Notes under the pieces: model-generated
The model's input: only the letters and a program-made list of their open reading frames with translations
Database searches by the model: none
Told to the model about the DNA's origin: nothing
Translations under genes and position numbers: made by a program
Part shown: one piece after another, positions 3,971 through 64,000 of the stretch
Position numbering within the stretch: the stretch's first letter is position 1
How the letters are laid out: every line of letters begins with the position of its first letter
NCBI RefSeq assembly: GCF_000826145.2
Contig: NZ_LN651337.1
Coordinates: 871,774-935,773 of the forward strand
Reading direction: 5' to 3'
DNA: 64,000 nucleotides
Origin: Sporosarcina koreensis
GTDB lineage: Bacteria > Bacillota > Bacilli > Bacillales_A > Planococcaceae

Positions 3971-5977
3971 TTACTTGCCGAGCAGTCCGGTCACTTTCTC
4001 CATGACGTTCCCTGTATGGAAGCCGTATTCTTTCATGACGATATCTCCAGGTGCGCTGGCGCCGAATGTATCAATCGCCAGTACGTCCCCCTCAGTGCCG
4101 ACGTACTTGTGCCAGCCGAGGGAAGATCCCATTTCAAGGGAGAGACGCGCGGTGACAGCTTTCGGCAGTACTTGTTCCTTGTAGCCGGCGTCCTGTTCCT
4201 CGAAACGATCCCAGGAAGGCATGGAGACAACGGAAACGTCGATCCCTTTGCTGCGGAGCTCTTTCTGTGCGTCCACAGCGAGACTGACTTCGGAGCCGGT
4301 GGCAATCAGGATGGCTTCCGGCTGGTCCGCTTCGCTCGGCGAAACGATGTACGCCCCTTTCCGGACACCTTCGTCTGCCAATTCCTTCGATTTTTCAAGG
4401 ACTGGCAGGTTCTGGCGGGACAGCACAAGCACGGTCGGTTTGTCCGCCGACGTGACAGCAAGCTTCCAAGCCGCCGATGTCTCGTTGGCATCCGCAGGAC
4501 GGATTACGGACAACCCGGGCATTGCACGAAGGGATGCCAGGTGTTCGATCGGCTCGTGAGTCGGACCGTCTTCCCCTACTGCGATGCTGTCGTGGGTGAA
4601 TACGTATGTGACAGGAAGTCCCATAAGCGCCGAGAGACGGACTGCAGGACGCACATAGTCGCTGAAGACAAAGAACGTCCCGCCGAAGACATTCAATCCC
4701 CCGTGGAGCGCCATTCCATTCAATGCAGTGCCCATTGCGAATTCACGAACACCGAACCAGATATTGCGTCCTTCCATAGTGCCCGGCAGGAAGTCCCCTG
4801 CCCCTTTGATTGCCGTTTTGTTGGAACCTGCGAGGTCCGCACTTCCGCCGAAGAACGAAGGGAGTGCTTTTGCAATCGCATTGATGGCATCGCCGGAAGC
4901 TGAGCGGGTCGCAATCGACTTGCCTGTTTCATATACAGGCAGCGCAGCGCCGACCGACTCGGTGTCAATACCGTCGATTGCAGCCTTCAGCTGTTTTGCA
5001 AGTCCGGCATGTTCAGCTTCATAGGCGCCGAACAATTTGTTCCATTCGGATTCACTGTCCATGCCGTTTTCCTGGATGGACGTCTTGAACGTTTCATAGA
5101 CTTCCTCAGGTACATGGAAATCCTGATCGAACGTCCATTTATAGTATTCTTTCGTCAATTTCATTTCATCTTCACCAAGCGGCGCGCCGTGGACATCCGA
5201 TTTACCGGATTTGTTCGGAGAGCCGTAGCCGATGATCGTCTTCACTTCGATGAGCGTCGGGCCGCCGGTGTTCTGTTTTGCCTGTCCGATCGCGTCAGAG
5301 AGTCTGTCCGTATCATTGCCGTCTTCCACGCGGATATAATTCCAGCCGTAAGACTCGAAACGCTTCTGGATCTTTTCAGTGAAGGACATGTCCAGTTCTC
5401 CGTCGAGTGAAATATCATTGCTGTCATACAGGACGATCAGCTTATCAAGCTCAAGATGGCCGGCAAGGGAGATCGCTTCCCCGGCAACACCTTCCATCAG
5501 GTCGCCGTCACCGCAAAGTGCGTATGTGTAGTGATCGACAATGTCGTATCCCGGTTTGTTATAAGTGGCAGCCAAGTGCTTTTCTGCCATCGCCATGCCG
5601 ACCGCCATGCCGATTCCCTGCCCAAGAGGACCTGTCGTCGCTTCCACACCGGCTGTGTGGCCATATTCAGGATGCCCGGGTGTCTTGGAGCCCCATTGGC
5701 GGAAATTCTTCAGCTCATCGAGTGGAAGATCGTACCCGCTCAGATGGAGCATGCTGTACAGCAGCGCAGACCCGTGTCCGGCTGACAGGACGAAACGGTC
5801 ACGGTTGAACCAGGAAGGATTCGATGGATTGTGATGCATATGCTGTGTCCACAGTACATACGCCATAGGTGCAGCTCCCATAGGAAGGCCCGGATGGCCG
5901 GAGTTTGCTTTTTCGATTGCATCGATCGACAATGTGCGGATCGTATTGATCGCCAATTGATCAACAGGTTTGGTCAT
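3971..5977 (-). CDS. tkt: Transketolase
   Basis: A 668-residue thiamine-diphosphate enzyme of the pentose phosphate pathway that moves two-carbon ketol units between sugar phosphates. The N-terminal [12 protein letters not shown] segment, the diphosphate/metal motif GDGDLMEG, and the pyrimidine-domain region [18 protein letters not shown] are all present, and the length matches bacterial transketolases. ATG 5977 is preceded by AAAGGG. It stands between ynzC and sirA as in B. subtilis and has its own terminator. Nothing is missing from the active site. Confidence 0.98.
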
Positions 5978-60052: not shown

Positions 60053-61654
60053 TTACCCCATCCTGAAGAATTCCTGGAGTTTTTCAGTAACTTCCTCTTT
60101 CCGCCATTGAAAATGAGTCCCCGCAGTCCGGTATGTGACTTCCACGAACCCGTCCGCGGCCCGGCCGTCCACTGCAATCTTGACAGGAACACCAAGCTGA
60201 TCGGAAGTCCTCTGCTTACTTTCCGCACTCACATGCCTGTCGTCGTACAGCACCCGGTAGCGGTAGCCTTTCATGACGGAATTCAGCTCATCGGCGAGCT
60301 GCAGCTGTGCGTCGTCGTCAGTGTCCTCAATCAGCAGGTGTATATCGTAAGGGGCGAGACGTACCGGCCATTTGAGCCCTGACTCATCACTGAAGTATTC
60401 AGCCGTCACTGCGAACAGCCGGGTGACATCGATGTAGTAATAACCGGTGGAGATCTCGAGTGACCCCTTGCCGGCAACGTCGATCGTACTGAACACCGGT
60501 TTCGGATCGAGAATCCAGGCGACTGTCACTGCTTTATGAAATGTCAGGGTGCCGTTCCCGTCAGGCGAGGGCTCCCCCTCTTTGACGAGACGCAGGTCCG
60601 CATAAGTATCAGCCGTAAAGTCCCGTTCCGGATTGACATTTTGGAGGAATGTATCCGTTTCGTTCGCACCGCACAAGCCGTTCACAACCGTCTCTACACT
60701 ATAGTCCGCAATCACACGGAAACCGAACGGAAGCTGTACAGGTCCGAGTGTTTCCGACTGCACACCGAGCACTTCCTTTACGCTGCCGTCTGTCAGTCTG
60801 CAAATCGAATCGGTACCGAGAACTTTTTTCAGCTTCCATTCGTTCAGTTCACAGTCGTTTCGGATGAGCACCAGGACTGCTCCGTCATCCGTGTCATACA
60901 GGTACGACCGGATGATCCGGTCTTGGTCTATATCCAGCGATTCCGCCAGCTGCACGACATCCATGCCGCCGCCGTTTATCTTCTTGGCCGGTTTCTCCCT
61001 TACACCCGCTTCCCTTTCCTGCCGGGGAGCCTCAGCGAGTGCTGCTTTGGCTGCATACGTTCCGCTCTCATTCCGAGCGATCCATTCATCGCCGCATTCC
61101 GAGAAGGCGGTGAATTCATACTGTTTCACACCAGCCTGCTGTTCGCTCTCCAGAATACTGAATGGGGTGCCGATCCTGTTGAAGATCGCAGAAAACACGG
61201 AGTGGAGGAGCGTCCCGTGCTCCTCCGCCTCTTTGATGTCCGTATGGAACGAATAGCCGCTCATCAGGGAGAATTCTTTTGCCGCCAGCAGACCCCTTAC
61301 CGGATCGAATGAACTGTCCGGACGGATATGCTGCTTGATATGGAACATGGAGATGGGCAGCTGCTCGGACGCGATGACCTCCTTTGCGATCAGCGAAAGG
61401 AGCACCATTTCATCCGATTTCCCTGTGGCATGCTCGAACTGTTCATAAGGCAGGTCCACTTCCAGCACACCTGCCTGTTCCATCTCATCGCGTATCATCT
61501 GCTTCATATTAGCCAGCACTTTCCCGGCGAGCGGAAAGTATGCGTACATCCCCTCGGAAGTCTCCTGAATATAGCCGGATTGGGTCAGCAGACGGTCCGC
61601 TGAGCAACGGTTCGATGTTTCAGCGGCAGGTATGAAAACGCCTGATTGTTTCAT
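60053..61654 (-). CDS. proS: Divergent prolyl-tRNA synthetase homologue with altered active site
   Basis: A 533-residue protein in the usual proS position between rasP and polC; canonical bacterial ProRS has about 565. Motif 1 ([15 protein letters not shown]), the insertion domain (about 225-360, with the GANE segment) and the C-terminal anticodon domain are recognisable. The catalytic parts are not normal. About 25 residues holding the usual GRW-x2-YG-x-EL-x-R segment are missing. The TxE loop THE is SDE (80-82). Motif 2 FRxE is IRPD (110-113), and the following Lys-Asp is lost. HEF is YEF. The GTRYSEA segment is gone. Motif 3 GIGVSR is YIDVTR (407-412). The frame is intact, so it is either a changed enzyme or a pseudoenzyme. 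Confidence 0.85.
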
Positions 61655-61696
61655 CGTGCATCGCCTCCCTCAATCCCCCAGAGGGGTACTTGTCGT

Positions 61697-62956
61697 TCAG
61701 AAAAAGAATTTCTGTATATCATTCCAAGTGACGACCAGCATGAGCAGCATGAGCAGCATGATGCCGACAAAATGGACCATCCCTTCTTTTTGACGGTCGA
61801 TCGGCTTGCCTCGTATCGCTTCGAACAGGAAGAACAGCAGCCGTCCGCCGTCAAGTGCCGGCAGAGGGAGCAGGTTCATGATCCCGAGGTTGATGCTCAA
61901 TACAGCCGCCCAGTTCATCAGATTGAAGATGCCGTACTGTGCAACTTCTTCGGTCGCTTTGTAAATACCTACCGGACCGGATAATGCATCCAGTGTGAAC
62001 TGGCCAGTTACAAGCATACCGAGCAGTTCAAATATCTTCGCGATCCAGTACCACGTCTGCTGCGCGCCGTAGACGACAGCCTTCAGCGGATTCTTCTCCA
62101 CCGGGCTTGTGTAGTAGACGCCGATCTGGCCGAATGACTGGCCGGCATCCTCGACTTCCTCCGGGGTCACCGTCAATGTTTTCAAGGCCCCGTTGCGTTC
62201 CACTTCGATTGTCATTTCCTTTTCAGGGCTGTTCTGGATTTCTTCGGTGAATCCGTTCCAATCCGTCACAGCCCTGCCGTCCGCTTCTTTGACATAGTCA
62301 CCCGCCTGAAGGCCGGCCGCCGCCGCAGGGCTGTCTTTCTGGACTTCGGTGATGATCGGTTCGTTCGTCGGCACGCCGTTCAGCAGGCCGAGTGCAAGGA
62401 AAACGAAGAACGCCAGGATGAAGTTGAAAACAGGTCCCGCCAATATAGTGAGGAACCGTCCCATGAGCGGCTTCGAATCGAATTGACGATCTTTCGGTGC
62501 GATCAGTGTCTTTTCACCTTTTTCGTAGATGACAGCATTTCGCGACACGCTGAAACGGACGAGGTTTTCATCTTCGTCGTATCCTTTGATGAAAAGCTCA
62601 TCTTTCAAGTCAGCAGCCTCGGTTTCCAGGAAGAGGATCTCGGGGTTGGAGACATTCGAATTCAAATAGATCTTTGTCACTTCATCTTGGTCGTTCAGAA
62701 TCAGACCCACACGATAACCGGGCAGCAGTTCCACGGTATCGAAGTCTTCTCCTGCCATCCGGACATACCCGCCGAGCGGCAGCAGCCGGATCGTGTAGAG
62801 GGTTTCCCCTTTCTGGATTCCAAGAATTTTCGGTCCCATACCGATTGCAAACTCGCGGACCATGATGCCTGCGCGCTTTGCGAACAGGAAGTGTCCGAAT
62901 TCATGAAAAAATACTAAGGAGCCGAAAATAATTATAAACGAAATAACTGTTCCCAT
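61697..62956 (-). CDS. rasP: Site-2 intramembrane zinc protease RasP/RseP
   Basis: A 419-residue membrane metalloprotease. HEFGH at residues 18-22 and the LPLPALDGGR motif near residue 365 supply zinc ligands; a PDZ domain (ITEVQKDSPAAAAGLQAGDYV) lies between. Four main helices are seen. RasP cleaves anti-sigma factors such as RsiW and signal-peptide remnants. It lies between dxr and the proS-like gene, in the normal order. Confidence 0.96.
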   Translation of the reverse strand: MGTVISFIIIFGSLVFFHEFGHFLFAKRAGIMVREFAIGMGPKILGIQKGETLYTIRLLPLGGYVRMAGEDFDTVELLPGYRVGLILNDQDEVTKIYLNSNVSNPEILFLETEAADLKDELFIKGYDEDENLVRFSVSRNAVIYEKGEKTLIAPKDRQFDSKPLMGRFLTILAGPVFNFILAFFVFLALGLLNGVPTNEPIITEVQKDSPAAAAGLQAGDYVKEADGRAVTDWNGFTEEIQNSPEKEMTIEVERNGALKTLTVTPEEVEDAGQSFGQIGVYYTSPVEKNPLKAVVYGAQQTWYWIAKIFELLGMLVTGQFTLDALSGPVGIYKATEEVAQYGIFNLMNWAAVLSINLGIMNLLPLPALDGGRLLFFLFEAIRGKPIDRQKEGMVHFVGIMLLMLLMLVVTWNDIQKFFF

Positions 62957-63001: not shown

Positions 63002-64000
63002 TTATTTTATCATGGAATGGACGATTTGACGAGTTTGCCTGTCTGTCTCAAGGATGGCTTCAAGGGTTGCGTTCCGGATGGTCTGGTGCTGCTCCATCGC
63101 GCGTTCGACGAGTTCATCGATCTGGACGAATGTGATATGGCCGGCAAGGAACTGGCTGACCGCCACTTCGTTTGCTGCGTTCATCGCCGCAGGCATCGTG
63201 CCGCCGATTCGTCCGGCTTCATACGCAAGCGCGAGTGCGCGGAACCGGTCATAGTCCATCTTCTTGAAGTTCAGCACTGCAATCTCTTCAAGTTTCAGGC
63301 GCTGGGGCGACGCCATCGGGATACGTTCCGGATAGGTCAGCGCATATTGGATCGGCACACGCATGTCCGGTGAGCCCAGCTGTGCCATGACGCTCGTGTC
63401 TTCGAATTCGACCATGGAATGGATGATGCTTTCCTTATGCAGCAGACAGTCGATCTGATCGTACGGCATATCGAAGAGGTGATGGGCTTCGATCACTTCC
63501 AGTCCTTTGTTGAACATTGTCGCGGAATCGATTGTCAGCTTGCTGCCCATTGACCAGTTCGGATGCGCAAGGGCCTGTTTCACTGTGACATTCTGCAGCT
63601 GGCCGCGGGTCAGATCACGGAAACTTCCGCCCGACGCAGTGAGGATCAGACGGGTGATGGATTTCTCCTGCTCCCCGTTGAGCGCCTGGAATATCGCCGA
63701 GTGTTCACTGTCCACAGGCAGGATCGGCACATTTCGCCGCTTCGCTTCAGCCATTACGACATCCCCTGCTGCGACGAGCGTTTCCTTGTTTGCAATGGCA
63801 ATGGCAATCCCTTCTCGGATCGCCGCCAATGTCGGTTTCAGACCGACACTGCCGATGACGGAATTCAGCAGGACATCCGCACCTGAATGGGCGGCTACTT
63901 CTTCAAGGCCTTCTGATCCGTACATGAACCGGATGGACGGGAATTCCGTGCGCAGCATCTCGGCGTCCGCCTTCTCTATGACCGAAATAAGCGGCGGATT
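63002..64000 (-). CDS. dxr: 1-Deoxy-D-xylulose 5-phosphate reductoisomerase, 5' end cut by window
   Basis: The frame is open to the window edge; 332 residues are visible and about 45-50 N-terminal residues, including the NADPH motif, lie outside. [32 protein letters not shown] and [28 protein letters not shown] are the family's substrate and metal sites, all intact. It performs the committed step of the MEP isoprenoid pathway. The internal ATG at 63958 is not the true start. It is followed by rasP. Confidence 0.97.

Follow-up and report, generated by a model that had tools for sequence, protein, structure and literature searches.

Organisation of the proS locus

The window (the complete stretch of 64,000 nucleotides of Sporosarcina koreensis DNA analysed here) carries on its minus strand an open reading frame of 533 aa with an ATG start codon, which encodes a degenerate bacterial-type prolyl-tRNA synthetase (ProRS) and is here called proS*; the plus strand of the same interval contains stops. 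The features of the locus are listed in Table 1, where rasP, dxr and polC are presumed names for the neighbouring genes, and the domain borders are presumed from those of E. coli ProRS. The gene order dxr-rasP-proS*-polC is retained at 7/7 loci of named relatives, which also have GGAGGCGA of the ribosome-binding site in common with the window. Synteny, an open frame and a good ribosome-binding site (GGGAGGCGA) were all part of the original prediction for this DNA, and are borne out here.

Table 1. Features of the proS* locus, with positions in the window and the basis for each assignment
Feature	Position	Strand	Basis and remarks
dxr neighbour, cut by window end	63002..64000	-	ORF list; synteny
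rasP neighbour	61697..62956	-	ORF list; synteny, order kept in 7/7 named relatives
proS* ribosome-binding site, GGGAGGCGA	61661..61669	-	Sequence; rated good
proS*, degenerate bacterial-type ProRS	60053..61654	-	ATG 61654-61652, TAA 60053-60055; ORF calls, profiles, alignment
Catalytic domain part 1, residues 1-194	61073..61654	-	Alignment to E. coli ProRS
Site of 26-residue deletion after F73 (E. coli 77-102, including W86, Y89, G90, E92)	61435..61436	-	Alignment
TxE loop, THE to S80-D81-E82	61409..61417	-	Alignment; identical in 10/10 clade members
Motif 2, HIRPD in place of KFRDE, Arg kept, Glu lost	61316..61330	-	Alignment
HEF to YEF, residues 179-181	61112..61120	-	Alignment
INS editing-type domain, residues 195-374	60533..61072	-	PF04073, 51.4 bits
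Position of editing lysine K279, Arg249 in window protein	60908..60910	-	Alignment
Position of INS His369, Phe336 in window protein	60647..60649	-	Alignment; Phe in 10/10 clade members
Catalytic domain part 2, residues 375-427, GTxYS to KPVFS	60374..60532	-	Alignment
Motif 3, YIDVTR in place of GIGVTR, Arg412 kept	60419..60436	-	Alignment
Anticodon-binding-type domain, residues 428-533	60056..60373	-	PF03129, 29 bits
Altered anticodon-domain motif	60185..60244	-	Alignment
polC neighbour, 1436 aa	55684..59994	-	89-92% identical in 7 named relatives

Loss of catalytic, editing and anticodon-domain motifs

Homology of the window protein to E. faecalis ProRS (2J3L) is nearly full-length (phmmer 1.1e-83, in two stretches), and the predicted persistence of the insertion (INS) and anticodon domains was confirmed with the PF04073 (51.4 bits, cut-off 25.5) and PF03129 (29 bits, cut-off 21) profiles. 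The catalytic core is at the threshold of PF00587 (28.4 bits on the protein and 30.8 bits in the genome search, cut-off 29.3). While the protein thus resembles bacterial-type ProRS (TIGR00409; 2J3L) in its near full-length homology, its locus and its three domains, it differs in missing both curated family II equivalog cut-offs (PRK09194 298.3 vs 558 bits, TIGR00409 257.9 vs 306.7 bits) and in having lost the activation, proline-pocket, editing-lysine and anticodon motifs.

Aligned with E. coli ProRS and its relatives, the window protein shows every motif change named in the original prediction. T109-H110-E111 of E. coli ProRS corresponds to S80-D81-E82, keeping the Glu; motif 2 FRDE reads IRPD, with R140 retained as R111 and the Glu lost; K158-D159 has become M131-S132; the proline-pocket GTxYS reads KPVFS, in which only the Ser of the G-T-x-Y-S stretch is kept; and C443, G445 and G447 are replaced by Y, Y and D, turning GIGVTR into YIDVTR with R450 retained as R412. 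The deletion predicted at about 25 residues around GRW-x2-YG-x-EL comprises 26 residues, absent after F73 and equivalent to E. coli 77-102 in the alignment. Two losses go beyond the original prediction: within INS the editing Lys K279 is R249 and His369 is F336, and the anticodon-domain motif DDRxERxGVKF is replaced. A structure prediction of the window protein, made from 9 sequences, was too poor for use (mean pLDDT 58.7).

The altered form is shared by ten genomes and under purifying selection

The same 533-aa altered form, without stops, is found in 10 of the 68 genus genomes (its own included; one is of the window's species), which excludes sequencing error in practice as the source of the altered motifs. 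At contig level there are seven close orthologues, all Sporosarcina (ZBG7A, BI001-red, a MAG, S. gallistercoris, S. aquimarina, D27 and NCCP-2716), plus one distant gammaproteobacterial ProRS; the seven overlap the genomes of our survey and add none to the counts. In E. coli numbering, all ten clade members keep E111, R140, E154, Y161-S162-F163-H164, E209-F210, G442 and R450, and have lost T109, H110, R151, R153, K158, D159, G418-T419, Y421 and residues 77-102 with W86, Y89 and G90, while E142 and R144 are each lost in 9/10, and Tyr, Tyr and Asp are fixed at positions 443, 445 and 447. With regard to INS, D350, G339-P340, G362-A363-N364 and N374 are retained in 10/10, H369 is Phe in 10/10, and the K279 position is not conserved (Gln in six, Arg in two, His and Lys in one each). 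The DDRxERxGVKF motif is lost in 10/10, and its substitute is itself partly fixed (V475, S476, T483, L487).

In the named relatives, identity to the window's genome is 64-70% for proS*, compared with 83-88% for Dxr, 85-88% for RasP and 89-92% for PolC, and hence proS* evolves faster than its neighbours. The predicted maintenance of the gene is supported by dN/dS values of 0.088, 0.109, 0.100, 0.092, 0.086, 0.095 and 0.092 in seven species pairs (the last with a dS of 2.25, near saturation), and none of the per-domain values in clade pairs exceeds 0.161, which indicates purifying selection in all three domains; the same-species pair, with 2 replacement changes and 1 silent change, carries no dN/dS information. 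Six canonical ProRS pairs gave 0.027-0.053, two to four times lower than the clade, so that constraint on proS* is weaker than on a working ProRS, yet strong. In a quick tree the stem of the clade measures 2.13 changes per column and the distance from its base to the tips about 0.3-0.55, although the placement of such a long branch is uncertain; a burst followed by constraint is as expected if the protein were to have gained a new function.

An archaeal-type ProRS with a T-box leader is encoded elsewhere in the genome

One of the two readings in the original prediction placed the working ProRS elsewhere in the genome, possibly of archaeal type, and a profile search of the window's genome indeed found one intact family I ProRS on another contig (C5:17389-18816, TIGR00408 587 bits vs cut-off 437), and no second family II ProRS gene. 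This family I ProRS has no INS domain by PF04073, the only matches in the genome being the window gene and a YbaK (TIGR00011 159 vs 153 bits). It is preceded by a T-box leader (RF00230, 94.1 bits; positions 4896-5118, minus strand, of the L181 region of contig C5), in which GAACCCTACC, near the expected specifier position, would on our own reading contain a proline codon. Since the Rfam gathering threshold was reached at only 8 of the 20 family I loci given, we counted T-box motifs instead: within 400 bases upstream, such a motif precedes 21 of the 24 family I genes inspected in the genus and none of 30 family II genes. The exceptions are the three inspected family I genes from a group with an eroded 564-aa family II protein. 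At the gathering threshold, no Rfam T-box was found in the window or in 20 loci around proS. As T-box copies also precede family I genes in genomes that have a canonical family II gene (e.g. G020, G103), the leader reflects regulation rather than takeover per se. A T-box-like antiterminator motif is present on the plus strand at 1028-1042 of the window, with no Rfam T-box there at the gathering threshold. Genome G026 has two intact family I ProRS genes (C41:2493-3929 and C42:3878-5305) beside a canonical family II gene.

Erosion of family II ProRS is widespread in the family and accompanies family I

We expanded the search to 261 genomes of the family, classed by the E-value of their best family II match, with residue-level inspection of 58/59 eroded and 60/174 canonical cases and the remainder classed on score alone. 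Among the 178 genomes with a family I ProRS above cut-off, 94 have a canonical and 59 an eroded family II ProRS and 25 have none, whereas the 83 genomes lacking family I comprise 80 canonical, 0 eroded, one with neither type and two that could not be scored (G022, G025). This contrast in eroded versus canonical forms gives a Fisher value of 1.4e-13, which is inflated because the genomes are kin. The starred branches of a quick tree force 4 changes to the eroded state, and a tree constrained to unite all degenerate proteins of the genus is not rejected (p-AU 0.451), for which reason we put the number of independent losses at at least 3 rather than 4; three or four events are too few to prove dependence on family I statistically.

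The 67 aligned genus sequences comprise 35 eroded and 31 canonical proteins and the truncated G025, the eroded ones being the window's 10, 15 in the 564-aa group, 4 of 559-562 aa, 2 G049-like and 4 G059-like. In a second genus (g52, G273-G297) the family II ProRS is eroded in 23 of 25 genomes, with several sub-types, and absent from G284 and G288; G169, from a third genus, also has an eroded form. G025 and G289 are cut by contig ends and were excluded from the tree and medians, and E. coli served as reference only. In G022, which was not aligned, both proS genes are split (C1:2102094-2103790 and 313808-315236), the frame breaks probably being sequencing errors. Other small eroded groups are L045 (G049), L171 (G028) and L173-L176 (G059, G107, G014, G052), in which the TxE loop is replaced by DQA, DHA, LHT or LHK. 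Neither ProRS type was found in G117 (2.1 Mb, 90% complete), where the missing ProRS is probably due to assembly gaps.

Retention of domains and the question of editing

Editing of Ala-tRNAPro by the INS domain of ProRS depends on recognition of G35 and G36 by the anticodon domain and is unaffected by changes to the acceptor stem (PMC11295145), and the K279A variant of E. coli ProRS is described as editing-defective (PMC3973320). As INS editing leans on the anticodon domain, an editing-only ProRS is expected to have lost its core and kept both INS and the anticodon domain. We scored retention at positions invariant in a reference of E. coli ProRS and 19 family II ProRSs whose genomes lack family I (135 catalytic, 40 INS and 27 anticodon-domain positions). 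Medians for the catalytic, INS and anticodon domains were 1.00, 1.00 and 1.00 in 61 canonical ProRSs (lowest values 0.87, 0.95 and 0.89; 19 of the 61 are the reference itself and score 1.00 by construction), 0.69, 0.90 and 0.96 in the 48 other eroded proteins, and 0.31, 0.72 and 0.54 in the window's 10; the window protein itself retains 33% of catalytic positions, against 87-100% in those canonical ProRSs.

Retention in the 48 other eroded proteins on the whole matches the editing-only expectation, with the exceptions of G273, G283 and G295, which erode the INS and anticodon domains too; from this pattern we infer a conversion to an editing-only or similar pseudo-synthetase. These proteins keep K279 in 45, H369 in 41 and D350, a position which we take to matter for INS-type editing of Ala-tRNAPro, in all 48, next to E111 in 32, R140 in 40 and R450 in 47. 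In line with this reading, a third PF04073 protein is found in none of the 25 eroded genus genomes outside the window's clade, as compared with 5/10 in the clade and 14/31 canonical genomes (one a partial frame, G002); such proteins were typed by profile extent, and that of G007 best matches the ProXp-x structure 2CX5. Against it count the extra free-standing PF04073 proteins of genus g52, where 21/25 genomes have at least two, 19 of them beside an eroded ProRS. Furthermore, the majority of pairs from the less eroded groups show stronger constraint on the catalytic domain than on INS (e.g. 0.015 vs 0.068), as canonical ProRSs do, which a pure editing-only model does not predict; these proteins may have kept some catalytic activity, or their core may serve as a scaffold. 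An exception occurs in g52 (catalytic dN/dS 0.054 vs 0.032 for INS). INS-type editing of tRNAPro seems dispensable in genus g38, since four of its genomes (G119-G122) have neither a family II ProRS nor any PF04073 match. The editing or tRNA-binding role suggested in the original prediction is compatible with the wider eroded set. For the window's clade, which has lost the editing Lys and His and the anticodon motif, it is doubtful; given the editing defect described for K279A, canonical editing by the window protein is unlikely.

Alternative explanations for the window's clade

The early-stage relic raised in the original prediction, an old proS drifting after the archaeal-type takeover and merely not yet lost, would fit the complete absence of family II from 25 genomes carrying family I, the eroded catalytic core, and a dN/dS that exceeds the canonical pairs by a factor of two to four. 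It is nevertheless highly improbable, as the 533-aa frame is shared by ten genomes without stops, many changed sites are fixed in 10/10, and dN/dS is 0.086-0.109 in seven species pairs and low in each domain. We also think it improbable, though less so, that the clade protein is a working synthetase of changed specificity, for another amino acid or a special tRNA in the manner of Streptomyces ProRSx; while the two motif arginines and E111 remain, and less eroded groups show high constraint on the catalytic domain, the clade has lost the motif-2 Glu and R144 (in 9/10 each), K158-D159, the proline-pocket G-T-x-Y and the W-x2-YG segment.

The protein could still act in trans as an aminoacyl-tRNA deacylase whose catalytic residues and substrate have changed, and would then be a novel editor of INS type carried by a synthetase scaffold. 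Of the clade's three domains INS is retained best (median 0.72), with D350, G339-P340, G362-A363-N364 and N374 in 10/10, members of the INS family differ in their substrates (PMC11295145), and 5/10 clade genomes lack the third PF04073 protein; yet the other five do carry this ProXp-x-like protein, every clade genome has another free-standing PF04073 protein, and the variable K279 position, the Phe in place of H369 and the lost anticodon motif make such activity rather unlikely. Above this altered deacylase we rank, tentatively, a regulatory or assembly pseudo-synthetase following the logic of HisZ, in which the core would bind a small ligand or protein partner without tRNA chemistry. Both the motif-2 and motif-3 Arg, E111, E154, YSFH and EF are kept in 10/10, Tyr, Tyr and Asp have become fixed at positions 443, 445 and 447, and the three domains are under similar constraint, although the dxr-rasP-polC neighbourhood points to no partner or ligand.

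Comparison with known systems

Full synthetases or their derivatives that edit in trans have been described in the Anabaena ThrRS T1 (PMC4787780) and the archaeal ThrRS-ed (PMC11295145). As in these two systems, synthesis and editing would be split over two proteins, with editing kept alongside a tRNA-binding domain, in the other eroded ProRSs; the window's clade differs in being without the known editing residues. HisZ, a HisRS paralogue that serves as regulatory subunit of HisG, is a synthetase-fold regulator (PMC9437257), and proS* would share with it a synthetase fold without adenylation that is kept by selection, but unlike HisZ is full-length with INS, and a resident gene at its own locus that was very likely replaced by a foreign-type enzyme. 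The free-standing ProXp/YbaK proteins have the INS fold in common with proS*, but are single-domain proteins, whereas the INS of proS* sits within a whole synthetase. Similar to proS*, Streptomyces ProRSx is a diverged bacterial ProRS beside another ProRS, but it ligates Pro to an odd tRNA, whereas the active-site motifs of proS* are broken (for ProRSx, PMC9437257). ProRSx is the sole ProRS entry in the available parts of the table in that 2022 review, and among the literature matches listed, of which coverage is partial, there was no inactive ProRS paralogue of this kind.

A former synthetase probably retained for another role

The product of the window gene is very likely not a working ProRS but maintained, and the best overall explanation is that this former proS has most likely ceased to encode a prolyl-tRNA ligase and is preserved for a different function. 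An INS-less archaeal-type ProRS would have taken over prolylation and so relieved the native ProRS of its synthetic task. Most affected lineages would have kept the latter, with its INS and anticodon domains, to clear mischarged (Ala-)tRNAPro in trans, and whether the window's lineage passed through such an editing-only stage appears evenly balanced. The clade would then have gone through a single further burst of change, in which the known determinants of editing and of the anticodon domain were lost, to give a pseudo-synthetase now presumably acting via its best-kept domain, INS, with a core still holding both motif arginines. Since the editing Lys and His and the anticodon motif are lost, the clade protein probably does not charge or edit in the known way; rather than a prolyl-tRNA ligase or a standard Ala editor, it is probably a pseudoenzyme under constraint.

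For the family as a whole, it is plausible that on at least three occasions an INS-less archaeal-type ProRS let the native ProRS become non-synthesising in place, with its editing and anticodon domains kept, and that the window's clade represents a further, new family of pseudo-synthetases with its own conserved residues and a putative ligand. There is also a warning for annotation: the less eroded protein of G043 passes both ProRS cut-offs, with 605 bits against 558 and 547 against 306.7, and would receive the name proline--tRNA ligase. Within one family the genomes form a graded series, from a canonical ProRS by itself, through the two types together and an eroded form accompanied by the archaeal type, to the archaeal type by itself, which allows testing of how an essential synthetase turns dispensable for synthesis while still selected, whether editing retains the old ProRS, and how pseudo-synthetases gain new roles.
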